NCBI GenBank assembly: GCA_002706765.1
Contig: PAJV01000068.1
Location: 62,001-126,000 of the forward strand
Direction of reading: 5' to 3'
Source of the DNA: Gimesia sp.
Lineage (GTDB): Bacteria; Planctomycetota; Planctomycetia; Planctomycetales; Planctomycetaceae
Length of the DNA: 64,000 nt
Made by a program: the position numbers and the translations under genes. Shown here piece after piece: positions 50,966 to 64,000 of this stretch; within the stretch, counting starts at the first letter, position 1, and the number at the start of each line of letters is the position of its first letter. The notes below the pieces were generated by a model. That model saw only the letters and a list, made by a program, of their open reading frames with translations. It had not been told where the DNA came from and did not search any database.

Positions 50966-52453
50966 TTACGCAATAATATCATTGATTACGTGGCCGCCTA
51001 CATCCGTCAAACGGAATCGTCGTCCGCTGTAGAGATAAGTCAGTTTTTCATGATCCATGCCCAGCAGTCTCAAAATGGTGGCGTGCAGGTCATTCACGTG
51101 GACTTTATTCTCCGCCGCTTTGAAGCCGATCTCATCGGTGGCACCATAGCTGGTTCCCGCTTTGACTCCGCCCCCTGCCAGCCAGGTGGTGAAAGCGTGT
51201 GGATTGTGATCGCGGCCCGGCGTGGCGCCTTTCTGGGCGATGGGCAGTCGTCCAAATTCACCACCCCAGATCACCAGGGTTTCATTGAGCAGGCCCCGCG
51301 CTTCCAGGTCAGCCAGTAATGCTGCGATGGGCTGGTCGGTTTCTTCAGCGAATCCGCTGTGGTTGCCTTTGATATCTGAGTGGCCATCCCAGCTCCGCTG
51401 GTTTTCCATGCCGCCGGAATAGATCTGCACAAAGCGAGTGCCCCGTTCAACCATCCGCCGTGCAATCAGACACTGTTTGGCAAAGTGTTCACACTTCTTA
51501 TTGCCAATCCCATACTGTTCCTGGAGATGTTTCGGTTCCTGGGCAATATCAAGGGCTTCGGGTGCGGCGCTCTGCATCCGGTAGGCCAGTTCGAAGCTTT
51601 CAATGCGTGCTGCCAGTTCCTGATCACCGTCATTTTGCTGCAGATGCTGACGATTGAGCGATTTCAGCAAATCCAGTTGAGAACGCTGTCGTCCTTTTTC
51701 GGTGAGGACAGCGGGAGGCTGCAGATTATCAATTGGTTCACCCGTCGGTCGCAAATAGGTTCCCTGGTAAACACTGGGCAGAAAACCGGCTCCCCAGTTC
51801 AGGCTCTGTCCTTTGGGTAACCCACGTCCCAGCGGGTCGGACATCACAACAAATGCGGGCAGGCTGTTACTTTCAGAACCGAGTCCATAAGTGACCCAGG
51901 AACCGACACAGGGGTAACCCATTTTGGGCAGTCCGCTATTCATCATAAACAGGGCAGGGCTGTGGTTATTCGATTCCGTATGACCTGAGTGAATGAAGGC
52001 CATTTTGTCGACGTGTTGTGCCATGTTCGGGAAAATCTCGGAGACCCACTTTCCCGATTCACCATACTGTTTGAACTTGAACGGGCTTTTCATGAGAGGC
52101 CCGACCGAATTCTGAAAGAAGCCGGTTTTGTTGTCGAAACCTTCCAGCGCGACTCCATCCCGTTTTTCCAGTTCGGGTTTATAATCCCAGGTATCGACCT
52201 GGCTGGGACCGCCGTTGATAAACAGCCAGATGACTGCCTTGGCTTTGGGCGGGAAGTGAGTCGACTTCGGCGCCAGTGGATTGGTGGCCTGCATCGAAGG
52301 AGCGGCTGCTGACTGTTCCAGCACTCCCTCCTGTTGCAGAAGGCTGAGCAGTCCGAGTGTCCCCAGACCGCTGCCCGCGCGTTTGAGCAACTGTCGGCGG
52401 GCCATTAACTGGTTCAGTGAAATTGTCGGTAATTCGCTGGATGAAGGTCTCAT
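50966..52453 (-). CDS. DUF1501 Tat-exported protein (sulfatase-like fold)
   Basis: The frame opens with TTG at 52468; ATG 52453 with AGAGG eight bases before it is the better start (495 residues). A Tat signal is visible as LMARRQLLKRAGSGLGTLGLLSLL. The core is typical: AVIWLFINGGPSQVDTWDYKPELEKRDG, FIHSGHTESNNHSPALFMMNSG, GTRFVQIYSGGMENQRSWDGHSDIKGNH and ETLVIWGGEFGRLPIAQKGATPGRDHNPHAF. This is a second, only distantly similar DUF1501 protein. It starts 69 bp downstream of the PSCyt1/DUF1549/DUF1553 gene on the same strand. The two are normally a functional pair. Confidence 0.92.
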   Translation of the reverse strand: MRPSSSELPTISLNQLMARRQLLKRAGSGLGTLGLLSLLQQEGVLEQSAAAPSMQATNPLAPKSTHFPPKAKAVIWLFINGGPSQVDTWDYKPELEKRDGVALEGFDNKTGFFQNSVGPLMKSPFKFKQYGESGKWVSEIFPNMAQHVDKMAFIHSGHTESNNHSPALFMMNSGLPKMGYPCVGSWVTYGLGSESNSLPAFVVMSDPLGRGLPKGQSLNWGAGFLPSVYQGTYLRPTGEPIDNLQPPAVLTEKGRQRSQLDLLKSLNRQHLQQNDGDQELAARIESFELAYRMQSAAPEALDIAQEPKHLQEQYGIGNKKCEHFAKQCLIARRMVERGTRFVQIYSGGMENQRSWDGHSDIKGNHSGFAEETDQPIAALLADLEARGLLNETLVIWGGEFGRLPIAQKGATPGRDHNPHAFTTWLAGGGVKAGTSYGATDEIGFKAAENKVHVNDLHATILRLLGMDHEKLTYLYSGRRFRLTDVGGHVINDIIA

Positions 52454-52522
52454 CTCAAAGCCTCTCAATATGAACTTCGTCTGGATAACGGTTTCGCAGG
52501 TGTCGTGTGTGTAACGGTTGCT

Positions 52523-55500
52523 TCAGTTCGGGTAGATGAATTCGTTGGTGCTGAGTAACGCATGAGTGAAATCCGTTAACGCCAGCAGTCTGGCATTTTC
52601 TTTTTTCTCTTTCTGGTAGGACGTCTCATGCTGACGAATAAACTCGAGCGAGATCGCGGTTTCGCTGTCTGTCGGATTTCTCCCTAAAGCGATCTGGTAG
52701 GCGTTCTGAATGTTTTTTTCGAGTGAATCCGGATGTTGTTTAAGAATCCGTTCTGCGAATGAACCGGCGCTCTTCCGGATGAAATCGGCGTTCATAAACA
52801 GCAATGCCTGCGGGGCAATGGTCGTGCTGGAACGTTGGCCGATACTGACGAGTGCCTCGGGGGCATCAAAGAGCTGCATCATCGGGATCAACTGGCTGCG
52901 TTTGATTTTGAAATAGATGCTGCGTCGCTGGTTGTCCTGCTGCAGTGATCCGGGGCCATACATGGTCGGGTCCAGTTGATTGCCCACATACAGAATCGCA
53001 TCGCGGATCACTTCCCCTTCCAGTCGTTGCGGTGAGTGTCGCCAGTAACGTTTGTTCTCCGGATCGACTTTCGCTTTGGCTGGATCAAAATCCGTTGACT
53101 GCCGATAGGTGGCGCTCAGCATGATTTCTTTATGGAGTGGCTTTAACTGCCAGTCGTATTTGATAAGTTGATTTGCCAGGTATTCCAGCAACTCGGGATG
53201 CGTGGGGCGGTCTCCCTGTAATCCGAAGTCGTTGGGAGTGGCGACAATTCCCGTTCCGATATGATGTTGCCAGAGTCGATTAGCCATCACGCGTGCCAAC
53301 AGCGCCCCTGCGCCCTGTTGGGTATCGGTCATCCAGTTCGCCAGCGAAGTGCGGCGGTAGGATGTGGTAGCGGATTCGGGAGGTGCTTCAATCCAGGACT
53401 CTTCCTGCTGAGGGGTACGCATGAGGACCTGCAGGAATCCCTGGCTGGCGACTTTGCCTTTCTGATCCGTGTCTCCCCGTGTGAGATGATAGGTTTCTTC
53501 GAAGAAGTCTTTTCCCTGGGTATGATGCCGGACAGGTTTAATATCCGGACCTTCACTGCAGATCATGACTTTCGTCAAAGCCGGTTGCGGCTCGGTTTTC
53601 AGATGCGTTTCGACTTTCTCTTTCAGAGTGATCCACTGGGGATCCTGTTGTTCAAACTGACGCTTCAAGATTTCTTTCTGAGCTGCGGACAGTTTTTCCG
53701 GTTTTCCTTCCTGGACAAATTGCAGTGCCTGCGAAAGTGCTTCGGGACTGCCATTGCCGGTTTTTATTTCGGAGACCGTGGTGTTGCTGACGGAAAAACG
53801 GGGACGACCGATACTGTGATTCACATTGTTTGTGAACGACATGCTGATGGTCAGTTCGGTTTCGCCAGCCTGGTCCAGTGGTTTTTCCAGATCGAAAATG
53901 ACTGCCTGATCTTTGCCGATGCCACCCAGGTCGACGGCCCAGCCCGATCCGTATTGGCCGTCGATGGCGCTGGCAGCAGAAAGCGTGGTCTGATTCTGCT
54001 CATGCGTTGCACGGGCATTCGTGAGTTTGAGTTCTACAGCAGTCGCTTTTTTATCCTCAACGGATTTCGCGTTGACTTTGAAGGCAGTCAGGGAAAAGTT
54101 CCCGTTGACCGCACGACCCGGACCCTGTTTGGGCAGAGAGCGATGTGAGAGTGCTTCCAGTCGAATGGACCGGATGGGATTTACACTGGTACGTAACGTG
54201 AAAGTATAACTGTCCTGGTTGATATTCGGACCACTGACGAGGACCGAGCCATCGTCCAGTTTTTCAAAGCGGGCTTTGCCTTTTGAAGTATGGCCAATCA
54301 CTTCGGGTACAATCCATTCATCAAGCTGAACTGTCGCCGCTTTGCCTGACTGCAGCCATTTTATGAATGCCGGTTCCACCGATGACGTTTCATACTCCTG
54401 CAATGCTTTGACCAGCGGCGCGTGTGCCTGATCGAATACTGCTTTATCTTTTTGGTATTGTTCGGGATCCAGGTCGAGTTCGATTTCCGTACGCACCGTG
54501 GTCGTAAATGTGGAAAGCATCCGGTAATAGTCGTTAGCGGGAATAGGATCAAATTTGTGATCATGGCAGCGCGCACAGCCGACGCTCAGCCCCAGCATGG
54601 CCAGGCTGGTTGTATTGAGCATATCGTCGAGCGCGTCATAGCGGGTGCGTTCAACTTCATTGGCCGTAATCTGAGTCGGGAAGACGCCAGCACCCAGAAA
54701 GCCGGTTGCCATTAGCGCCAGCGGGTTATCCGGGTCAATTTCATCACCGGCCAACTGCCATTTCACAAACTGATCGTAGGGCATATCCTGGTTTAGGGCT
54801 TTGATCACAAAGTCGCGGTAATGGTAAGCATAATTACGATCGTAATCGTGTTCGAAGCCGTGACTCTCTGCAAAGCGGGCGATGTCCAGCCAGTGGCGGG
54901 CCCAGCGTTCGCCGTAATGCGGGCTGTCCAGTAACCGGTCGATCAACTTTTCATAAGCATCGGGAGACTGGTCTGCCAGGAACTCTTCGATTTCTGCCGG
55001 TGTGGGGGGCAGGCCGATCAGATCAAAATAAGCGCGACGGATATAGACGCGTTTACTGACCTCGTCATTGGGGCTCAGTCCTTTTTCCTGTTGCTGTGCA
55101 AGAATGAACTGGTCGATATTATTATGAGCCCACTCATTCTGTTTCACCTGGGGAATAGCAGGCTGATGCAGCGGCTGGAACGACCAGAATTTCCGGTCAT
55201 CACTGCTGACTTGCATTGCTCCATCATCAGCGGCTCCCGATGTCGCCAGCGCTTTATCGAAGGGAGCCCCGAGATCAATCCATTTTGACAGAGTGGCAAT
55301 TTCTTTCTCAGAGAGTTTCGGTTCTTTGAGAGGCATATAGGGTTCTTCACGGTGTTCGACCAGCGCCATCAGGTAGCTGTCTTTCGCCGTCTTGTCGATC
55401 ATGCCACTTTCCAGCAGTTTTTTGCGATTTGAGAGATCGAAATCTCCCTTTATCGATTTGCCTCCATGACATTTCAGGCATTTGGCAACGAGCAGGGGAC

Positions 55501-55645
55501 GGACTTCTTTTTTGAAGAGCTCCAGTCCCTGCTGCATCCGGCGGGCATGGTCGGCTGGCAGATCGGTTTTCTTTTCTGCTGCCGGGAGAGAGTCTGTGAA
55601 AACTATTCCCGGTATCATTGTGAGCGCGATTAGAAGATTTCGCAT
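52523..55645 (-). CDS. PSCyt1-DUF1549-DUF1553 exported protein
   Basis: The frame opens at 55738, but ATG 55645 (GAGG upstream) gives the signal peptide MRNLLIALTMIPGIVFTDSL and 1040 residues. A Planctomycete cytochrome c domain has CLKCH (Cys56 to His60). DUF1549 follows at about 175-385, with HYGERWARHWLDIARFAES and CARCHDHKFDPI. A beta-sandwich, LamG-like middle occupies about 440-620, and DUF1553 lies at about 745-1010 (LANWMTDTQQGAGALLARVMANRLWQ). Two possible haem sites. It lies 93 bp downstream of the FecR/LamG gene, so the sigma factor, FecR/LamG, this gene and the DUF1501 gene may form one operon. Confidence 0.92.
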   Translation of the reverse strand: MRNLLIALTMIPGIVFTDSLPAAEKKTDLPADHARRMQQGLELFKKEVRPLLVAKCLKCHGGKSIKGDFDLSNRKKLLESGMIDKTAKDSYLMALVEHREEPYMPLKEPKLSEKEIATLSKWIDLGAPFDKALATSGAADDGAMQVSSDDRKFWSFQPLHQPAIPQVKQNEWAHNNIDQFILAQQQEKGLSPNDEVSKRVYIRRAYFDLIGLPPTPAEIEEFLADQSPDAYEKLIDRLLDSPHYGERWARHWLDIARFAESHGFEHDYDRNYAYHYRDFVIKALNQDMPYDQFVKWQLAGDEIDPDNPLALMATGFLGAGVFPTQITANEVERTRYDALDDMLNTTSLAMLGLSVGCARCHDHKFDPIPANDYYRMLSTFTTTVRTEIELDLDPEQYQKDKAVFDQAHAPLVKALQEYETSSVEPAFIKWLQSGKAATVQLDEWIVPEVIGHTSKGKARFEKLDDGSVLVSGPNINQDSYTFTLRTSVNPIRSIRLEALSHRSLPKQGPGRAVNGNFSLTAFKVNAKSVEDKKATAVELKLTNARATHEQNQTTLSAASAIDGQYGSGWAVDLGGIGKDQAVIFDLEKPLDQAGETELTISMSFTNNVNHSIGRPRFSVSNTTVSEIKTGNGSPEALSQALQFVQEGKPEKLSAAQKEILKRQFEQQDPQWITLKEKVETHLKTEPQPALTKVMICSEGPDIKPVRHHTQGKDFFEETYHLTRGDTDQKGKVASQGFLQVLMRTPQQEESWIEAPPESATTSYRRTSLANWMTDTQQGAGALLARVMANRLWQHHIGTGIVATPNDFGLQGDRPTHPELLEYLANQLIKYDWQLKPLHKEIMLSATYRQSTDFDPAKAKVDPENKRYWRHSPQRLEGEVIRDAILYVGNQLDPTMYGPGSLQQDNQRRSIYFKIKRSQLIPMMQLFDAPEALVSIGQRSSTTIAPQALLFMNADFIRKSAGSFAERILKQHPDSLEKNIQNAYQIALGRNPTDSETAISLEFIRQHETSYQKEKKENARLLALTDFTHALLSTNEFIYPN

Positions 55646-55738
55646 CAATGCCTCGTTGTTAGGAAGTTCCAGCTGGTGAGAATTCAGGGAGTGACCATCG
55701 GATATCACCATGTCACAACAATTGGTAAATGAAATCAA

Positions 55739-57388
55739 TCAGGAATTCGGTTTTCCCGACTGGTATAACTGCAATATTTCTTCAGCAGGTAACGCGCGAC
55801 CGAACAGAGCAAATTCGTCCAGACGCCCGTTTAGACTGCGGATGGAGTGGGCCCCCGTATGTTCCTGCGGTCGCCAGTTACCGATCTCAGCAGGGCCGAT
55901 GACCAGGGGGACCGGGTTTTCGATTTTATGGTGGCTGACCGCGACGCCGTCCAGGTAGTGTACGACTTCCCGTTTCTGATGATCATATACGGTCACCAGA
56001 AAGATCCAGCGTCCCAGGTCGGTCGGCTGCAGCACCACGGGAGAAAAATAGTTCTTGCCGGGCCCCGTTTTGACACCCAGGATCATTTCGCCTTTGTCGC
56101 TGAGTTGCCAGTGCGGGTTGCCGGGATTGTATCCGTCAGTCAGCATTAACGAACTGAGCCAGCGATCAAAGCCTTCGATACGGACCCAGGCCATAAAGGT
56201 CAGCGACTGGTATTCTCCGGGAATATGAGTGCGTACCCGGTCGCTGGTTCGCTTGAATTCCAGGCTGCGTTTTTGTGGCCAGCGTCCCGAAGTCCACTGA
56301 CAGCCGACGATGGCTCCGTTTGTAGACGATGAGGGCTTCTGCTGGCTCTTGTTATTGAGGGTGCGGAGCCAGTTAGATGATTCTTCAAAATCATAATATG
56401 CGATGATGGAAGGGTCGGCCTTCAGCATGGTATTCTGTTCCTGCCAGCGTTTGAACTGCTGTGCCTGCTGCTGTTCGACCAGTTGTGACAGCTCTTCTGA
56501 ATCGATGAAAGGTAACATTGCTTTCTGAAGTCGATCAATTGTACCCCGCTGATTGAACTGTACTCCTTCCCCGGTGGTCAAACTCTGAATGTTCGCTTGT
56601 GTTGACTGGCTGTCCGGAGAATGCAGTTCTACTTTACCGTCGATGACCTGCACCTGTCCGCTGCCGGACTGATCCAGTGAGAGAGTAAACTCGGTTCCCA
56701 GGTCAACGACGTTTAACCGGGATGTTTCCATCGTGAACCCGTGGGCCTGTTCGGGGACAGACGCGCGTACTTTTCCGTATTGGCAGAATGCTTTCAGCGG
56801 GGAGATCAGTTTTACCGCCGCCGGGCCTTCGATCAGAATTGAAGCACCGCTGATCAGTTCTACCTGGATGGTGCCCTGTTTCAGTTTCAGCCAGCCGGCA
56901 GAAAGCCCCGCACCAGCTTGCAGATTACGGCTGGTGTCCCACTCGACGCCGACGGCTTGGGTTAACAGAGCGATATGATCTGTTTGAGGCGTACTGATTT
57001 CATTGGATTGATTTTCCGGGGCAGTGTCCGCGATGGATGGCAGGTTGTCGGGTCTGGTGTTCCAGCCGGCATAATAAGCCAGCGAGAGCAGGAGTGTCGC
57101 CGCGATCAGTGAAGAACCCAGTATCAATAGAAAGCGGGTTGTGTTCAATGGGGAGGGAGGATTGTCCGTTGGGGGCTGAGGAATCCAGTCTTCCGATGCT
57201 GTTGTTTCGTTCGCCCAGGAAGCGAGTCCGTTATGCACGTGCATGTAGTCGATATAAAGTTGACGCTGTTCGGGATCCGCTGCAAGCAGTTGTTCCAACT
57301 GCTGCTGTTGCTCGTCGCTGATAGTGCCCTGCAGAAAAGCGTCGATCAGTCGTATCGTCTGGTTGTCAGGCGTTGTATTCTGGTTCAT
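55739..57388 (-). CDS. FecR/LamG-domain membrane protein, likely anti-sigma partner
   Basis: 549 residues. A cytoplasmic N-terminal zinc-free anti-sigma-like segment (about 1-60, LIDAFLQGTISDEQQQQLEQLL) is followed by one transmembrane helix (about 85-107). A periplasmic FecR domain covers about 165-275, with ISGASILIEGPAAVKLISP and DLGTEFTLSLDQSGSGQVQVIDGKVEL. A LamG/concanavalin-like domain occupies about 355-545, including DGVAVSHHKIENPVP and GRLDEFALFGRALPAEEI. Proteins of this architecture in planctomycetes control the ECF sigma encoded immediately upstream. The start overlaps the sigma stop codon by four bases. A signal sensed by the LamG domain, probably a carbohydrate, is plausible but unproven. 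Confidence 0.9.
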   Translation of the reverse strand: MNQNTTPDNQTIRLIDAFLQGTISDEQQQQLEQLLAADPEQRQLYIDYMHVHNGLASWANETTASEDWIPQPPTDNPPSPLNTTRFLLILGSSLIAATLLLSLAYYAGWNTRPDNLPSIADTAPENQSNEISTPQTDHIALLTQAVGVEWDTSRNLQAGAGLSAGWLKLKQGTIQVELISGASILIEGPAAVKLISPLKAFCQYGKVRASVPEQAHGFTMETSRLNVVDLGTEFTLSLDQSGSGQVQVIDGKVELHSPDSQSTQANIQSLTTGEGVQFNQRGTIDRLQKAMLPFIDSEELSQLVEQQQAQQFKRWQEQNTMLKADPSIIAYYDFEESSNWLRTLNNKSQQKPSSSTNGAIVGCQWTSGRWPQKRSLEFKRTSDRVRTHIPGEYQSLTFMAWVRIEGFDRWLSSLMLTDGYNPGNPHWQLSDKGEMILGVKTGPGKNYFSPVVLQPTDLGRWIFLVTVYDHQKREVVHYLDGVAVSHHKIENPVPLVIGPAEIGNWRPQEHTGAHSIRSLNGRLDEFALFGRALPAEEILQLYQSGKPNS

Positions 57389-57954
57389 GATCCCATCTCC
57401 GCAGAGTGGAGTGTCTGTTGCATGCAGTCCATAAGCTTCAGACGCAGGCGAGAAAGTTTCTTATAGAGTGCCTCGCAGGAACGTCCTGTCTGTTCAGCCA
57501 CTTCTTTGATGCTGTGGCTCCCTTGATAGCAGTCCTGGATGAGTTTCCGGCTCTCGACATCCAGCTTCTGAATACAGTTCTGCAATGCCCGTTGTCTGTG
57601 TTCGGCTTCCGGTAATGAAGTTGACTGTTGTGCTGCAATGAGTGACAGGATTTCATCCGAAAAATAATGTCGATCCCGGCTCTGGACCCGTTGAAAGTTT
57701 TTCACTTCATAAAAGGCAATCCCGCAGGCCCAGGAAGTAAAACTCTGTGTATCGTCAAACGTATCCCATTTCCTCCAGAGCACCAGGCAGGTTTGCTGGA
57801 ATACATCGTCGGCGTCGGTCTGGTGAGGCAGCAGTGTGCCGATAAAGCCTCGGATCAGACTGTGATGTCGAGCCAGCAGCGAAACAAATTGTTCATGAGG
57901 GGGCTGATTCATGGTGGTGTCTGTATCGAATTGTGTTTCCTGAGACAGTTCCAT
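57385..57954 (-). CDS. RNA polymerase ECF sigma factor, planctomycete type
   Basis: 189 residues with sigma region 2 (about 30-90: HHSLIRGFIGTLLPHQTDADDVFQQTCLVLWRKWDTFDD) and region 4 (about 125-180, with the helix-turn-helix LIQDCYQGSHSIKEVAEQTGRSCEALYKKLSRLRLKLMDC). The DADDVFQQTCLVLWRKW stretch is the classic -10-recognition helix of the planctomycete ECF group (Rhodopirellula baltica type). Start is ATG 57954 or in-frame ATG 57912 (MNQPPHEQF), since the first 14 residues are polar. Its target promoters are probably those of this gene cluster. It overlaps the FecR/LamG gene by four bases. Confidence 0.92.
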   Translation of the reverse strand: MELSQETQFDTDTTMNQPPHEQFVSLLARHHSLIRGFIGTLLPHQTDADDVFQQTCLVLWRKWDTFDDTQSFTSWACGIAFYEVKNFQRVQSRDRHYFSDEILSLIAAQQSTSLPEAEHRQRALQNCIQKLDVESRKLIQDCYQGSHSIKEVAEQTGRSCEALYKKLSRLRLKLMDCMQQTLHSAEMGS

Positions 57955-58174
57955 ACTGGTGATCGTACGCCCGAATCACAACTGGACGGAGAGAAACCTC
58001 ACTTTTTGGAACTGGTTTCTGATGAGTTCGTATTAAAATCTGTAAGTTTGCCTGCGGAGTGACTTTATCGCATCTGATTTTAGAACGATTATTTTGAAAG
58101 TATCTCCGTTTTGTGAAGCGTCCTCTCCTCCATTCCACTATACAGAAATTATAGCAGAACTGACGCTGATTCTA

Positions 58175-58187
58175 TTGCGAATCGCAA
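58175..58187. promoter_or_regulatory. Perfect 13-bp palindrome upstream of the lipid cluster, candidate operator
   Basis: TTGCGAATCGCAA is a perfect odd palindrome (TTGCGA, central A, TCGCAA). It lies in the 381-base intergenic region (57955-58335) between the divergent sigma gene and the ketoacyl synthase gene, about 150 bp before the latter. The symmetry is what a dimeric repressor would need. No regulator gene is adjacent on the lipid side. The rest of this intergenic region shows no other structure. Confidence 0.45.
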
Positions 58188-58335
58188 ATCTGAATTGCTG
58201 CGCCACTTGCGAGTTTACAGTAGAACGGGTAATCTCCTTGGGTTAATATTTATCATATCCTCTGCCCGGCCTTTGCGGTCGAGTGGCTTATGAACCTTCA
58301 TTGCTTTAATAAATCGATCAGAGTGGTATAAATCC

Positions 58336-59586
58336 ATGCAGGCATCAATGGATGATCAAAGCAGAATCGTCATTACAGGGATCGGTTTAACCGCTCCGAA
58401 TGGCAACAATCTGGATGAATTTCGGCAAAGTCTACTGGCAGGTCGTTCGGGAGTTGTGGACTACAACATCCGTTATATGGGAGATGTACTCGCCGGCGTC
58501 TGTAATTTTGATGAATTACGCTACCAGAAACGAAAAGAAGTCCGCCGCGGAACGCGTGCCGGTTCCATCGCCGTTTACTGTGCGAATGAAGCCGTCAACC
58601 AGTCCGGTCTGGACTGGGAGAACGTGGCCCGCGATCGTGTCGGCGTTTATCTGGGGATCACCGAGCATGGGAATGTCGAGACAGAAAACGAAGTCTACGA
58701 AATTTCCCAGTTCGATTATGACACCAAAGTCTGGTCACATCATCACAATCCGCGGACCGTCGCGAATAATCCAGCCGGAGAGGTCACGCTCAACCTGGGA
58801 ATTACCGGACCGCATCTGACGCTGGGCGCTGCCTGTGCTGCAGGAAATGCGGGGTTCATTCAAGGTGTACAGATGCTGCGTCTGAATGAAGTCGATATGG
58901 CCTTGTGTGGCGGTGTTTCAGAGAGTATTCATACATTTGGTATTTTTGCCAGCTTCCAGAGCCAGGGAGCTTTGGCCGTGCATGAAGATCCGACTAAAGC
59001 CTGCCGACCCTTCGATGTGAAGCGGAACGGGATCGTGGTCGCCGAGGGGGGCGCCGTCTGTACGCTGGAGCGTCTGCCTGATGCATTGGCTCGCGGTGCC
59101 ACTATTTATGCTGAAATTATCGGCTATGCAATGAATTCCGATGCCAGTGATTTCGTGCTCCCGAATGCAACGCGGCAGGCAGAGTGCATTCATCTGGCGC
59201 TCAAACGGGCTGGTTTAAAGCCGGAAGATATTGATATCGTCAGTAGTCATGCCACGGCAACTCACCAGGGGGATATCGAGGAAGCCAAGGCGCTCGCCAG
59301 TGTGTTTGGTGATTGTCCCAATCTGGCGATCAACAATACCAAGAGTTTTATCGGACACGCGATGGGCGCTGCCGGCGCACTGGAGATGCTGGGGAACCTG
59401 CCCGCCTTCGAAGACGGGATTGCTCACGCGACGTTGAATCTTGATGAAATCGATCCGGAGTGCAAATTGCCTCAACTGGTTCCTAACGAGCCACGTCAGA
59501 TGGAACGAGTGGAATGTATTCTGAATAATTCATTTGGAATGCTGGGAATCAATTCGGTTCTGATCGTAAAAAAATATTCTGCCTGA
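58336..59586 (+). CDS. Beta-ketoacyl-ACP synthase, FabF-like, first gene of lipid cluster
   Basis: A 416-residue thiolase-fold condensing enzyme. The catalytic cysteine is Cys167 in LGAACAAGNAGF, histidines are His305 (SSHATATHQGD) and His341 (NNTKSFIGHAMGAAGALE), and Lys336 is present, so the triad is complete. The active-site surroundings differ a little from housekeeping FabF (ACAAGN instead of ACATSN, SSHATATHQGD instead of NAHGTSTPxGD). It therefore probably extends an unusual acyl chain on the dedicated carrier protein encoded downstream. The N-terminal strand RIVITGIGLTAPNGNN is typical. Spacing to the carrier protein gene is 326 bp, longer than usual for an operon. Confidence 0.93.
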   Translation: MQASMDDQSRIVITGIGLTAPNGNNLDEFRQSLLAGRSGVVDYNIRYMGDVLAGVCNFDELRYQKRKEVRRGTRAGSIAVYCANEAVNQSGLDWENVARDRVGVYLGITEHGNVETENEVYEISQFDYDTKVWSHHHNPRTVANNPAGEVTLNLGITGPHLTLGAACAAGNAGFIQGVQMLRLNEVDMALCGGVSESIHTFGIFASFQSQGALAVHEDPTKACRPFDVKRNGIVVAEGGAVCTLERLPDALARGATIYAEIIGYAMNSDASDFVLPNATRQAECIHLALKRAGLKPEDIDIVSSHATATHQGDIEEAKALASVFGDCPNLAINNTKSFIGHAMGAAGALEMLGNLPAFEDGIAHATLNLDEIDPECKLPQLVPNEPRQMERVECILNNSFGMLGINSVLIVKKYSA

Positions 59587-59912
59587 TCAGACTGTTCAAC
59601 GGCAACCTGCGGCGCTATAACCGGGCAAGAGTCTTCTCCTTGAAGAACTGTGTTAACCCATCGTAAAACATGATTCTCTCTGGATTTTCTGAAAAACTCT
59701 GCTTTCTTCAGGCCTGAGTCGGTTTAAATCCAATATTAGATCGGGTTATAGTATTCCTGATGAGGGGCGGGTTTTTGGAACCCGGCTTCTAGCGGGGAGA
59801 TTCTTTGTTTGTTATAAGGGGCTTCCCACGACCGGGTTTCCCCGTGATCTTTGTGAGCTTCGCTGCACGAAATCGACGTTATTGGATTTTTTTGAAAGTT
59901 TGGAGTTTCTGC
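59587..59912. other. Intergenic region with one hairpin, no gene recognised
   Basis: 326 bases between the ketoacyl synthase and carrier protein genes. CGGGTT (59768-59773) pairs with AACCCG (59779-59784) across five bases, with no T-run after it. A GGAG ribosome-binding site for the carrier gene lies at 59902-59905. The length allows an internal promoter, but no convincing one was seen. Confidence 0.5.
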
Positions 59913-60176
59913 ATGGCGCCGGAACAAATCAGATCGGTAATCTTGGATATCTTGTCTCGTATTGCTCCCGATGAAGATCTTTCGGATCTGGACGACAGTG
60001 TTCCTTTCCGGGAGCAGATGGAACTGGACAGCATGGATTTTCTGGATATTGTCATGGAGTTACGCAAACTCTATCGTGTACAGATTCCCGAAGAAGACTA
60101 TGGTGAACTGGTAACCATGGACAGCACTGTCACCTACCTGACACCACTCTTGAAGGATGCGGAAAGCACCGTCTGA
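59913..60176 (+). CDS. Acyl carrier protein
   Basis: The frame opens at 59805 but ATG 59913, with GGAG seven bases upstream, gives an 87-residue carrier starting MAPEQIRSVILDILSRIAPD. Ser40 in ELDSMDFLDIVMEL is the phosphopantetheine attachment site (the DSxD/x motif has Met instead of Leu after the Ser). The fold is a four-helix bundle, acidic throughout. It is not the housekeeping ACP of fatty acid synthesis, whose usual neighbours (fabD, fabG) are missing. It probably serves the condensing enzyme and FabZ-like dehydratase of this cluster. Confidence 0.88.
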   Translation: MAPEQIRSVILDILSRIAPDEDLSDLDDSVPFREQMELDSMDFLDIVMELRKLYRVQIPEEDYGELVTMDSTVTYLTPLLKDAESTV

Positions 60177-60197
60177 ATCCCGTAAAATCCCTCCGCC

Positions 60198-61583
60198 ATG
60201 ACCTACGATTCAATCATTATCGGTGCCGGCCTGTCTGGGCTGGCCGCTGGGATCCGGCTGGCTTATTATGGGAAGCGGGTCTGTATTCTGGAAAGGCACA
60301 CCACCATTGGTGGCCTGAATTCCTTCTATCGACTGCGCGGGCGGAATCATGATGTCGGCCTGCATGCGATTACCAATTATTCTCCCCCCGGCGGAAAACG
60401 GGGGCCACTCAATAAGATTCTCAGGCAACTCCGCTTCAGCTGGGAAGACTTTGACCTCAGCCCCCAGTTCGGTTCTTCGGTGGTGTTCCCCGGACATACA
60501 CTGCGATTTAATAACGAGTTTGCATATTTCGAAGCTGAGATTGCAGCGCAGTTTCCCAGCCAGATTGATGGCTTTCGCCGTCTGGTCGCGGAAATAGACT
60601 CCCATAACATCGGCGACCTGGGACAGACCTGGATTTCCGCCCGGGCGCGTATGGCAGAGCATATATCCGACCCACTGTTGATCAACATGCTGCTCTGTCC
60701 GCTGATGTTTTATGGCAGCCCGTCAGAGCATGATATGGATTTCAACCAGTTCGTGATCATGTTTCGCAGCATCTACCAGGAAGGTTTTGCCCGTCCTTAC
60801 AAAGGTGTGCGGTTGATTCTGAAGAACCTGGTGAAAAAGTTTAAATCGCTGGGGGGCGAACTGAAATTACGAGCGGGAGTTCAGCAACTGGTCACAGACG
60901 GCAAGCACGTTTCAGGTGTCGTCCTGGATGATGGCCAGGTGCTTGAAGCGAAAAATGTGCTCTCTTCTGCAGGATCCGCGGAGACGCTGCAACTGTGTGG
61001 CGCAGATGTTCCTGTGGACGATCGTTTTACGCCCGGGGAAATTTCTTTCGTCGAAACCATTTCCGTACTCGATCAGCAACCAGCGGAATTCGGTCACGAC
61101 GAAACCATCGTGTTCTATAACGATTCCGAAGACTTTTACTACGAGCAGTCGAAAAACCCGGTTGATGTTCGCAGTGGGATTATCTGCTCGCCGAATAATT
61201 TTCAATATGACCAGCCGCTGGAAGAGGGTTCCATCCGTATTACCGCACTGGCAAATCCGGGGTACTGGATGAACCTTCCGGAAGACGAATACATCGAAGC
61301 CAAAAAGTACTGGTACGATCAGATCCTGGAATCCTCGCTGCGATTTATTCCTGACTTCCGTCCGCATGTGATCGACGTCGATACGTTTACGCCCCGTACC
61401 ATCAAAAAATTCACCGGGCATATCAATGGCTGTGTTTATGGGGCACCCCGGAAAATTCTGGATGGTACAACTCCCTTCGACAATTTATTCCTCTGTGGTA
61501 CAGACCAGGGATTTCTGGGCATCATCGGTTCGATGCTGTCGGGAATCAGTATTGCCAACCTGCATTTACTGAACGCGAAGTAA
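60198..61583 (+). CDS. CrtI-like FAD-dependent oxidoreductase/desaturase, copy 1
   Basis: A 461-residue protein with an N-terminal dinucleotide motif (SIIIGAGLSGLAAGIRLAYYG, then ERHTTIGGLNS) and a C-terminal FAD motif of the phytoene-desaturase family (NLFLCGTDQGFLGIIGSMLSG). In carotenoid enzymes this type dehydrogenates or isomerises long polyene chains. Carotenogenic genes (crtB, crtE) are absent here, and a ketoacyl synthase and carrier protein are neighbours, so acyl chains are the likelier substrate. The start is 21 bp after the carrier stop. It shares only the general family pattern with the second CrtI-like protein, so the two probably do different steps. Confidence 0.85.
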   Translation: MTYDSIIIGAGLSGLAAGIRLAYYGKRVCILERHTTIGGLNSFYRLRGRNHDVGLHAITNYSPPGGKRGPLNKILRQLRFSWEDFDLSPQFGSSVVFPGHTLRFNNEFAYFEAEIAAQFPSQIDGFRRLVAEIDSHNIGDLGQTWISARARMAEHISDPLLINMLLCPLMFYGSPSEHDMDFNQFVIMFRSIYQEGFARPYKGVRLILKNLVKKFKSLGGELKLRAGVQQLVTDGKHVSGVVLDDGQVLEAKNVLSSAGSAETLQLCGADVPVDDRFTPGEISFVETISVLDQQPAEFGHDETIVFYNDSEDFYYEQSKNPVDVRSGIICSPNNFQYDQPLEEGSIRITALANPGYWMNLPEDEYIEAKKYWYDQILESSLRFIPDFRPHVIDVDTFTPRTIKKFTGHINGCVYGAPRKILDGTTPFDNLFLCGTDQGFLGIIGSMLSGISIANLHLLNAK

Positions 61584-61828
61584 ACATTCCAGTCTGCGAG
61601 GTGCTGTACTCTTGCTTCGATGTAAGGCAAAACGACGCGATTATTTCCGTTCCTCCGTGGTGAATTGTCACACTTTTGTCACAGCATCCTGATTTACTGC
61701 CGTTTAGTAGACAAAGGCCTTGTTTTACGATAAACAGGAGATGCAAAACTTGCCATTCATGCAGGAACAGTGAACCGTTGCTGTCCCCTCTTTTTCTTCT
61801 GCTACACTCAATACAACGCTGAATCATT

Positions 61829-63256
61829 ATGGCCAAAGATTTTCTGAAAGATACTCAAGACGAATATGATGTGATTGTGATCGGCAGTGGTCTGGCAGGC
61901 ATGACTTCTGCCAACATCCTCGCCCGCCAGGGATATTCGGTACTGCTCCTTGAACATCATTACCAGCTGGGAGGCATGGCTACCTGGTTCAAGCGTCAGA
62001 ATGGTCATATCTTTGATATTTCCCTGCATGGCTTCCCGTATGGAATGCTCAAGAGCTGTCGAAAATACTGGACCCAGGAAATCGCCGATTCCATCGTGCC
62101 TCTCCGTGGCGTCCGTTTTGAAAATCCACAGTTCTCACTCGAAACCACATTCACCCGCGAGGACTTCACGCGTCTGCTGATTGAAAAATTCAGTATTGAA
62201 CCTGAGACCGTCAAAAGCTTTTTTGATACCGCCCGTAAGATGAACTTCTTCGATGACCAGGGGAAAACCACCCGCGAACTCTTCGAAGAATTCTTTCCCG
62301 GCCGCGATGACGTCGTTCGACTGTTGATGGAACCGATTTCCTATGCCAACGGTTCCACACTGGAAGACCCCGCGATTACCTACGGAATTGTCTTCTCCAA
62401 CTTCATGCAGAAAGGCGTCTACACGTTCCGTGGTGGCACAGACCGCCTGGTGAAGCTGATTAAAGCCGAAATGGAAAAGAATGGCGTCGATGTGCGCATC
62501 CGCACCCAGGTCGAGAAAGTCGAAGTCAGTCCCGATCGTCGTGTGACGGGAGTTGTGGTCAACGGAAAGCGGATTGGCTGTAAAGCCATCATGTCGAATT
62601 CGAACATCAAAGGTACAATTCTTAATCTGGTCGGCGAAGAGCACTTCGATCCGGAATTCATCGAAGAGACCAAAGCCGTGCGTCTGAATAACAGCAGTAC
62701 GCAGGTTTATATCGCTCTCAAGCCCGGTGATGAACTCAACTTCTGCGGTGATCTGCTGTTCCATTCCGAGCATAACGGCTTCGACATCAAAGCCATGCTC
62801 AGCAAAGAAGTCAGCAGTCGTACATTCTCGTTTTATTATCCGGAAACACGTCCGGGCAGCGATCGTTCTCTGATCGTCTCATCCACGAACGCGAACTTCA
62901 GTGACTGGGCCGACCTCCCCGAAGAACAGTATGAAGCCGACAAAAATCATCTGATCGAAACCACTCTCGATTGCCTCGAGCAGTATGTTCCCAACATTCG
63001 CGACCGGGTGGATCACCTCGAAGCTTCGACACCGCGAACGTTTCAGCGCTACACACAGCATCTGCAGGGCGCATCATTCGGCACCAAGTTTGAAGGTCTC
63101 AAAGTCAGTAAGGAACTGCCCGAACAGATCGAAGGTCTGTATCATGCCGGTTCGGTGGGAATTATCATGTCCGGCTGGCTGGGAGCCGTCAACTACGGCG
63201 TGATCGTCAGTAATGATGTGGATAAATATCTGACCCCCGCTGCCGCCCGCATTTAG
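61829..63256 (+). CDS. CrtI-like FAD-dependent oxidoreductase/desaturase, copy 2
   Basis: 475 residues. The FAD-binding N-terminus has [22 protein letters not shown], then [15 protein letters not shown]. The Rossmann end at the C-terminus reads [22 protein letters not shown]. It lies 245 bp after copy 1; that gap holds a short repeat of TTGTCACA but no gene. It is more similar to typical phytoene desaturases/isomerases in the region around [24 protein letters not shown] (the pairing loop before the substrate tunnel) than copy 1 is. It probably introduces or moves double bonds in a chain assembled on the cluster's carrier protein. Confidence 0.87.
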
Positions 63257-63302
63257 TTCTTGCCGAATCTGAATATAAACAAATACGAAACGGAATGTTC
63301 TC

Positions 63303-63728
63303 GTGAATCTGGATGATATCAAAGCCTGTATACCTCACCGCGAACCATTTTTGTGGCTCGACGAAGTCGTATCGATCGAAGAAAACAGCATCCACGCCCG
63401 CAAGTTTGTCTCACCTGAAATCGATATCTTTCAGGGACACTATCCCGATCATCCGGTTCTGCCTGGCGTGATCCTCTGTGAAGCCGCCATGCAGGCTGCA
63501 GCCGTTTTTATTGCGAAAACCGATGCCCCCGAGGCAGGTAAAGTTCCCGTTGCCACTCGCTTGAACAACACCAAATTCCGCCGCATGGTCAAGCCGGGAG
63601 AAACGATCGAGATTCTGGTCTCGCTGACCGAAAAGCTGGGCGGTGCTTACTTTTTTACCGGTAAAATCTCGGTGGGAAAAGAGACGGCAGTGCGGCTCGA
63701 ATTTGCAGTGACCGCGGCTGACGGCTGA
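63303..63728 (+). CDS. FabZ-like 3-hydroxyacyl-ACP dehydratase
   Basis: A 141-residue hotdog-fold dehydratase beginning with GTG at 63303. His46 and Glu60 are the catalytic pair in the motif GHYPDHPVLPGVILCEAAMQ. The IPHREPFLWLDEV opening is the substrate-tunnel segment of the FabZ family. It removes water from 3-hydroxyacyl chains on a carrier protein to give 2-enoyl chains, which explains its place beside a ketoacyl synthase, an ACP and two desaturase-like enzymes. No ketoreductase is encoded in the visible cluster, so the reductase must be supplied by fabG elsewhere. Confidence 0.9.
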   Translation: MNLDDIKACIPHREPFLWLDEVVSIEENSIHARKFVSPEIDIFQGHYPDHPVLPGVILCEAAMQAAAVFIAKTDAPEAGKVPVATRLNNTKFRRMVKPGETIEILVSLTEKLGGAYFFTGKISVGKETAVRLEFAVTAADG

Positions 63729-63731
63729 ATA

Positions 63732-63999
63732 TCATTTCCGGGCTGACTGATCTTCAATCCGATACAGGAAATGCTCGGTTCTGAGAATCAGTGACTTGCC
63801 TGCCACCGCCAGTGAAGCGACACAGCCTTCCTCCAGTTTATTCGAAGCCAGTTCCTTGTATTCTTTTCCGGGGAGAAACACCCGCGTCACACCTTCGCGA
63901 TCGGGGGCGTAGATCTTACCATCTGCATAAATGGGAGACGCGGAAAACGAACTGCGGTCCATACGTTCTTTCCAGACCTCATCTCCCGTCTCTGCATCC
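63732..63999 (-). CDS. PQQ-binding-like beta-propeller protein, C-terminal fragment
   Basis: An open frame enters from the right edge on the minus strand and ends at TAA-type stop 63732. The visible part (about 88 residues) reads DAETGDEVWKERMDR, then SASPIYADGKIYAPDREGVTRVF and GKSLILRTEHFLYRIE. These are propeller blades with the Trp-docking ETGDEVW signature of PQQ/BamB-type repeat proteins. The N-terminus is outside the window, so export and any catalytic role are unknown. It converges on the FabZ-like gene with 3 bp between stops. Confidence 0.7.
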   Translation of the reverse strand, partial: DAETGDEVWKERMDRSSFSASPIYADGKIYAPDREGVTRVFLPGKEYKELASNKLEEGCVASLAVAGKSLILRTEHFLYRIEDQSARK

Positions 64000-64000
64000 A

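Follow-up and report, generated by a model that had tools for sequence, protein, structure and literature searches.

The 64,000-nucleotide stretch of Gimesia sp. DNA analyzed here (the window) is part of contig C68 of a 7.9 Mb genome (G000) and carries five plus-strand genes which an earlier note, made from the letters alone, had described as a self-contained lipid cluster. The first gene encodes a FabF-like beta-ketoacyl-ACP synthase (KS; 58336-59586, 416 amino acids) that matches the Pfam ketoacyl-synt domain at 6e-38 and retains Cys167, His305 and His341 intact. It is followed by an acyl carrier protein (ACP; 59913-60176, 87 amino acids from an ATG; PF00550 PP-binding, 6.9e-7) with its phosphopantetheine serine at Ser40; the longest open reading frame (ORF) begins earlier, at a TTG at 59805. 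Two FAD oxidoreductases of the CrtI superfamily, OX1 (60198-61583, 461 amino acids) and OX2 (61829-63256, 475 amino acids), both with NAD_binding_8 and Amino_oxidase matches, precede a FabZ-like 3-hydroxyacyl-ACP dehydratase (DH; 63303-63728, 141 amino acids, GTG start), which contains a PF07977 FabA domain (1e-19) with His46 and Glu60. All ORFs, domains and residues named in the earlier note were recovered, and a residue check found those of a type II fatty acid synthase (FAS) elongation set, namely the Cys-His-His of KS, the serine of ACP and the His/Glu pair of FabZ.

Against the FabF model TIGR03150, KS scored 315.2 bits, below the cut-off of 493.75, and its five further matches within the same genome are each at most 33% identical. 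The FabZ-like protein reached 107.2 bits against the FabZ model NF000582 (cut-off 113) and also matched solved FabZ structures. Intergenic gaps of 326 bases between KS and ACP and of 245 bases between OX1 and OX2 indicate that the five genes do not form one tight operon. Consensus scans of positions 57900-64000 were uninformative, with nine promoter-like sites compared to 5.2 in shuffled sequences (standard deviation 2.6) and five terminator-like sites compared to 5.8 (standard deviation 2.5). A Pfam profile search of the five window proteins identified neither FabD nor FabG, and no ketoreductase (KR) or enoyl reductase (ER) partner.

By sequence and predicted fold, both oxidoreductases are assigned to the CrtI superfamily, at some distance from the carotenoid enzymes. 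The top NCBIfam match of OX1 is the carotenoid isomerase model TIGR02730 (77.9 bits, cut-off 586.9), while that of OX2 is the CrtD model TIGR02733 (111.3 bits, cut-off 549.7), followed by carotenoid isomerase with 94.8 bits; both proteins fall well below the curated cut-offs of the CrtI, CrtD and carotenoid isomerase models. They are only 22% identical to each other. AlphaFold2 models (pLDDT 88.2 for OX1 and 87.2 for OX2) gave carotenoid desaturases among their best Foldseek matches: 4dgk (CrtI) and 4rep for OX1, 4rep and 5mog for OX2. By sequence, OX1 matched two solved structures and OX2 none at 1e-8. In a tree of CrtI-like proteins, OX1 and OX2 branch separately from three annotated CrtI proteins, and their join with each other is flagged as a possible long-branch effect.

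The conservation of the set was assessed in 294 Planctomycetota genomes, with OX2 called at E<=1e-60 and KS at E<=1e-100. OX2 was present in 66 of them and a KS orthologue in 64, every one of which also has OX2; only G184 and G273 carry OX2 without KS. KS and OX2 thus occur together in 64 of 66 genomes, contrary to the lack of co-occurrence that the earlier note had named as a refutation. Gene order was examined by tblastn in 21 regions of 11.8-20 kb, i.e., the window's own and 20 relatives picked because OX2 was present, and in 80 named loci, often cut by contig ends, from at least 536 OX2 relatives in named genomes. By our own count, 76 of these loci bear planctomycete names, one is labeled “bacterium” and three bear names of other phyla; the closest OX2 among the matches listed, at 94% identity, belongs to an uncultured Gimesia. 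Identity cut-offs for the named loci were chosen by us and weaker matches dropped, and calls of ole, FabG and FabI genes rest on identity to one query each (46-65% for OleD in the 21 regions). In both sets, the order KS-ACP-OX1-OX2-(FabG)-FabZ-(FabI-like) was found, whole or in part, and all five window genes stand together in 7/21 regions and 19/80 named loci. On this comparison of sequences, the five-gene set is more than a chance neighborhood, and the proposal that these genes are dedicated to acyl-ACP assembly and include two CrtI-like flavoproteins is supported by their conservation in planctomycetes.

The relatives also supply candidates for the activities missing from the window cluster. 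A FabG gene adjoins OX2 in six of the 21 regions and three of the 80 named loci, and a FabI-like gene lies in the same run in 8/21 and 29/80, respectively. The absence of fabD and fabG stated in the earlier note holds for the five genes, but in view of these relatives the label “self-contained” does not fully fit. In the window's own genome, a FabI-like orthologue 67% identical to the cluster type of G121 is located on another contig (C69:65560-66354), beside a second FabI-like gene with 30% identity to that type; therefore, activities absent from the window cluster do exist in this genome, but unlinked. Four of the 21 regions (L052, L058, L060 and L061) carry OX2 without the other four genes nearby, and their genomes (G274, G241, G094 and G156) have KS elsewhere. 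Three loci labeled Deltaproteobacteria (L132), Dehalococcoidia (L142) and Nitrospinaceae (L156) carry an OX2 with 65% identity and at least two partner genes, and in L142 an OleA gene adjoins OX2 and its partners; these are either mislabeled bins or cases of transfer beyond Planctomycetota. Two further loci, L083 and L084, are labeled Candidatus Kuenenia stuttgartiensis and have an OX2 80% identical to that of the window, unlike the anammox-like genomes discussed below, so that their labels are probably wrong.

The partner pathway of the cluster is very probably the Ole system. OleA was identified in 106 and OleC in 110 of the 294 genomes, and both occur in the same 65 of the 66 OX2 genomes; the single exception, G273, is 80% complete and has a partial OX2. 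Among the 228 OX2-negative genomes, 41 carry OleA. In 32 of the 66 OX2 genomes, OleA or OleC lies within 20 kb of OX2 or KS; outside the families f1, to which the window belongs, and f34, this is the case for 32 of 39. The fullest ole-linked runs among the 21 regions are L054, which reads from the end of oleA through oleB, oleC, oleD, KS, ACP, OX1, OX2 and DH to FabI, and L057, with KS, ACP, OX1, OX2, DH, FabI, oleB, oleC and oleD. An ole gene was also found within 16 of the 80 named loci. The window's own genome has homologues of all four Ole proteins, dispersed over the genome: OleA on C50 (NF006720, 406.2 bits, cut-off 285), and adjacent OleC and OleD on C76, with OleB far along the same contig at C76:474842. 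OleC passes the broader model NF006754 (714 bits, cut-off 478), its next matches being olefin beta-lactone synthetase models, below their cut-offs; the top match of OleD is a 2-alkyl-3-oxoalkanoate reductase model, below its strict cut-off, and OleB is 52% identical to the ole-linked OleB of L054. The top solved-structure matches of a cluster-linked OleA are 3fk5, 3row and their kin, which we take to be OleA of X. campestris.

A second supplier of Ole substrates appears to alternate with the cluster. As a marker of Pfa polyunsaturated-fatty-acid (PUFA) synthases, to which the Pfa search was limited, PfaD (TIGR02814) was found in 43 of the 294 genomes, whereas this search found no match in the window's own genome or in any of the 66 OX2 genomes. 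The 106 OleA genomes comprise 65 with OX2, 38 with PfaD, none with both and three with neither (G003, G141 and G282); for the 112 genomes with OleA or OleC, the corresponding numbers are 65, 43, zero and four. The Ole-bearing genomes without either supplier are G003, G076, G141 and G282. By family, OX2 occurs in ten and PfaD in 22, and only f1 and f48 hold both kinds, in separate genomes. Within f1, for example, G216 and G283 have PfaD and no OX2 or KS match, and G216 carries oleABCD together.

The division is mirrored in the OleA proteins. A tree of OleA from 41 of the 106 genomes, hand-picked to span families (20 with OX2, 19 with PfaD, G141 and the window's own), resolves the 21 OX2-type and the 19 Pfa-type rows into two clades, each delimited by a branch supported at 100/100. 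In the mixed families, OleA of G216 and G283 (f1) groups with the Pfa type and that of G277 (f48) with the OX2 type. G141, in which no PfaD was found by the model search, stands beside G110 in the Pfa clade, so that PfaD may have escaped the assembly of this genome. As the two OleA clades match the supplier even in mixed families, OleA travels with its supplier. The earlier note mentioned neither reductase partners (KR and ER) nor a link to oleABCD, nor that the cluster alternates with Pfa. In the literature searched (titles and some passages, with most subscription journals beyond reach), no description of the planctomycete module, its tie to Ole, the Pfa alternation or the OleA clades was encountered.

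Taken together, these data suggest, with a probability of roughly 0.7, that the five genes encode the core of a polyunsaturated acyl synthase of dissociated, type II-like organization, which replaces Pfa as the feeder of OleABCD. In this model, KS would extend a chain carried on the private ACP, and FabZ would complete the cycle together with a ketoreductase (FabG) and a FabI-like enoyl reductase, the former encoded within the cluster of some relatives and the latter within that of others. OX1 and OX2 would place the double bonds while the chain is bound to the carrier. The dedicated OleA would then take up the polyunsaturated acyl group, and OleB, OleC and OleD would process its product into a long head-to-head polyene hydrocarbon, so that the cluster would serve Ole in the role played in other planctomycetes by the giant Pfa synthase. 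A polyunsaturated product is probable by analogy, because the cluster occupies the position of Pfa and connects to the same pathway, and the earlier guess at a polyene fits the Ole linkage. The most likely end product would be hentriacontanonaene (C31:9), built from two 16:4 chains. Sukovich and colleagues, in work of 2010, reportedly tested a Planctomyces, with C31:9 as the commonest product.

Several published observations agree with such a product. Shewanella requires Pfa to make the C31:9 hydrocarbon, and the chain that its OleA condenses is predicted to be 16:4n-3 (PMC6463001; PMC4882568). Likewise, pfa-like genes have been suggested as olefin feeders in a planctomycete (PMC3098273), olefins are recorded in Planctomycetes (PMC7158056), and a passage of PMC2649909, citing the descriptions of Schlesneria and Singulisphaera, gives C31:8 and C31:9 as known from this group. 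C31:9 is thus reported in planctomycetes, yet 65 of the 106 OleA genomes, those with OX2, lack PfaD; the cluster offers a testable candidate for the missing supplier.

As to the chemistry, we lean slightly towards redox-neutral isomerization by OX1 and OX2 rather than desaturation. Assembly of 16:4n-3 in two-carbon steps would require isomerization from trans-2 to cis-3 at C6 and C12, isomerization from trans-2 to cis-2 at C8 and C14, and full reduction at C4, C10 and C16. Two kinds of isomerization plus full reductions would match two flavoenzymes and one enoyl reductase, although this is our own arithmetic and no proof. In its widest form, the proposal would add a third way of making methylene-interrupted polyunsaturated acyl chains to those that use oxygen-dependent desaturases or Pfa megasynthases. 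It would be a dissociated acyl-ACP system, independent of oxygen, in which OX1 and OX2 act as enoyl-ACP isomerases (or desaturases) specific for position and geometry; it would be tied to an OleA lineage of its own and could be exchanged for the Pfa module in planctomycete evolution. For this extended claim, the arguments on the two sides seem to us evenly balanced.

A number of observations weigh against the proposed synthase. To our knowledge, no CrtI-superfamily enzyme acts on an ACP-bound acyl chain. Of the five genes, KS and OX2 were the ones covered by the 294-genome searches, and only 39 of the 64 genomes with both have them no more than 10 kb apart, although broken contigs may hide some further cases. 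No OleA or OleC gene stands within 20 kb of OX2 or KS in any of the 15 genomes of the window's own family f1 or the 12 of f34. On the side of Pfa, five PfaD genomes lack OleA and one lacks OleC, and of the 43 genomes with PfaD, 19 have it no more than 25 kb from OleA or OleC; moreover, the PfaD model also matched the Bacillus subtilis control genome, and PfaD alone is therefore no proof of a PUFA synthase. The clean split of the OleA tree implies that few independent events lie behind the correlation, so that Fisher values overstate the co-occurrence. Finally, C16:0 and C16:1 are given as the principal fatty acids of Gimesia (PMC4334474).

The strongest competing explanation retains the Ole link and alters the chemistry: OX1 and OX2 would be true desaturases that introduce double bonds oxidatively into a preformed acyl-ACP chain. 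We regard this as a possible, less probable alternative. It agrees with the CrtD desaturase model as the top NCBIfam match of OX2 and with carotenoid desaturases as the nearest solved folds, and desaturation has been proposed in print for Kuenenia and Desulfotalea (Rattray et al., 2009; PMC2649909). However, the dedicated KS and DH, together with KR or ER in relatives, point to double bonds being set while the chain grows, OX1 scores highest with the carotenoid isomerase model, and the first double bond in a saturated lipid is described as a harder task for such enzymes (PMC2649909).

It is unlikely that the cluster supplies Ole with a special chain that is not polyunsaturated, for instance one with an atypical number of carbons or just one or two double bonds, and that the hydrocarbon is therefore something other than C31:9. 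In favor of this reading, the link to Ole is the only part of the proposal that was observed directly, and some Ole systems are fed by ordinary type II FAS chains (PMC6463001). On the other hand, the alternation with PfaD and the C31:9 reported in Planctomycetes favor the same kind of precursor, and the two flavoproteins would otherwise be hard to explain.

A ladderane-type or polycyclic lipid pathway sharing descent with that of anammox bacteria is very improbable. The earlier note had pointed to FabF/ACP/CrtI/FabZ sets in anammox planctomycetes, and this composition is real: kuste3603-3608 are given as ACP, FabZ, FabF, a non-canonical FabF, a phytoene desaturase and a SAM radical enzyme (PMC4790861). 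As an anammox-like set, 13 genomes of family f44 were used which match the hydrazine synthase alpha model (PF18582), with ORFs mostly of about 810-830 amino acids in one or two copies. They were taken as anammox-like because the order ACP-FabZ-KS-KS-CrtI-radical SAM, seen by Pfam in L175 and by similarity plus a radical SAM match in L178 and L180, equals that of kuste3603-3608. PF18582 matched 57 of the 294 genomes, and several of these matches are many-copy domains in other planctomycetes, at least three of them OX2 genomes, so that the model alone does not mark anammox. In G145, G160, G277 and G290, outside f44, the HZS_alpha domain occurs at at least 16 places each, mostly inside large ORFs.

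Beyond the shared enzyme classes (KS, ACP, CrtI-like and FabZ; PMC4790861), the comparison fails. The CrtI-like proteins of anammox-like genomes share about 22-26% identity with OX1 and OX2 and fall in other clades of the tree, and OX2-model matches in 15 anammox-like genomes (13 of f44 and two of f75) do not exceed 108 bits. Radical SAM/B12 proteins adjoin the CrtI-like gene in all three anammox-like loci scanned, whereas a profile search for PF04055 gave no match among the five window proteins, in agreement with the absence of radical SAM stated before. PF18582 is also without a match in the window's own genome, and none of the 13 f44 genomes is among the OX2, OleA, OleC or PfaD matches. Membership in a ladderane cluster was rejected on the grounds of the CrtI clades, the radical SAM context and a host without a hydrazine synthase match; no support was found for a polycyclic lipid, and the likeness to ladderane genes, as judged by sequence, holds for enzyme classes only. 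“Ladderane” clusters have also been called in non-anammox bacteria, possibly of unknown function according to PMC9902471. One Pseudalkalibacillus plasmid locus (L182:2992-4497) combines KAS III, a HAD-IIIC phosphatase, ACP, E2, an FAD oxidoreductase, enoyl-CoA hydratase and FabZ. With an identity of about 30%, the oxidoreductase of this locus is nearer to the anammox CrtI-like proteins than OX1 and OX2 are.

A carotenoid or other isoprenoid pathway in a chance FAS-like neighborhood would fit the superfamily of OX1 and OX2, yet such a role was rejected and is hardly credible given their scores far under the CrtI, CrtD and isomerase cut-offs, their position in the tree apart from the three annotated CrtI proteins, the conserved KS, ACP and FabZ partners, and the record of three Gimesia species as white (PMC7716864).

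Upstream of the cluster, the window holds a minus-strand run (50966-57954) that, judged by eye without a family search, resembles the DUF1501 / DUF1549-DUF1553 pair common in planctomycetes. A FecR-like/LamG protein and an extracytoplasmic function (ECF) sigma factor also appear to be present.

In comparison with known systems, OX1 and OX2 share the fold and superfamily of the carotenoid flavoproteins CrtI, CrtD and CrtISO, and differ from them by scores under the cut-offs, separate clades and acyl-ACP enzymes as partners. The relation to OleABCD is one of linkage, with all four homologues in the window's own genome and, for roughly half of the OX2 genomes, ole genes in the vicinity of the cluster; the window cluster would, however, be an upstream supplier outside Ole proper. 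With Pfa (PfaA-E), the cluster would share the proposed task of providing polyunsaturated acyl chains for OleABCD, PfaD being found in the complementary Ole-bearing planctomycetes. Pfa is a multidomain, type I polyketide synthase-like enzyme, whereas the activities of the window are separate small proteins, and the place of its isomerizing domains may here be taken by the two flavoproteins. If correct, this would represent a PUFA-type synthase of small separate proteins, which can be expected to lend itself to expression and engineering more readily than Pfa. The clusters of Kuenenia and Desulfotalea psychrophila resemble that of the window in combining FabF, ACP, FabZ and phytoene-desaturase-like proteins, but hold radical SAM enzymes, to which Kuenenia adds KS paralogues with altered active sites (PMC2649909). 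D. psychrophila makes C31:8 and C31:9 without a polyketide PUFA synthase, and for both organisms an anaerobic FASII-type PUFA route with phytoene-dehydrogenase-like enzymes was proposed by Rattray et al. (2009; PMC2649909). The general idea of the cluster chemistry is therefore not new. Our CrtI comparison covered, of these two kinds of cluster, that of the anammox-like genomes. For the unsolved ladderane question, the planctomycete cluster offers a point of comparison on the role of a CrtI-like flavoprotein acting on carrier-bound acyl chains.

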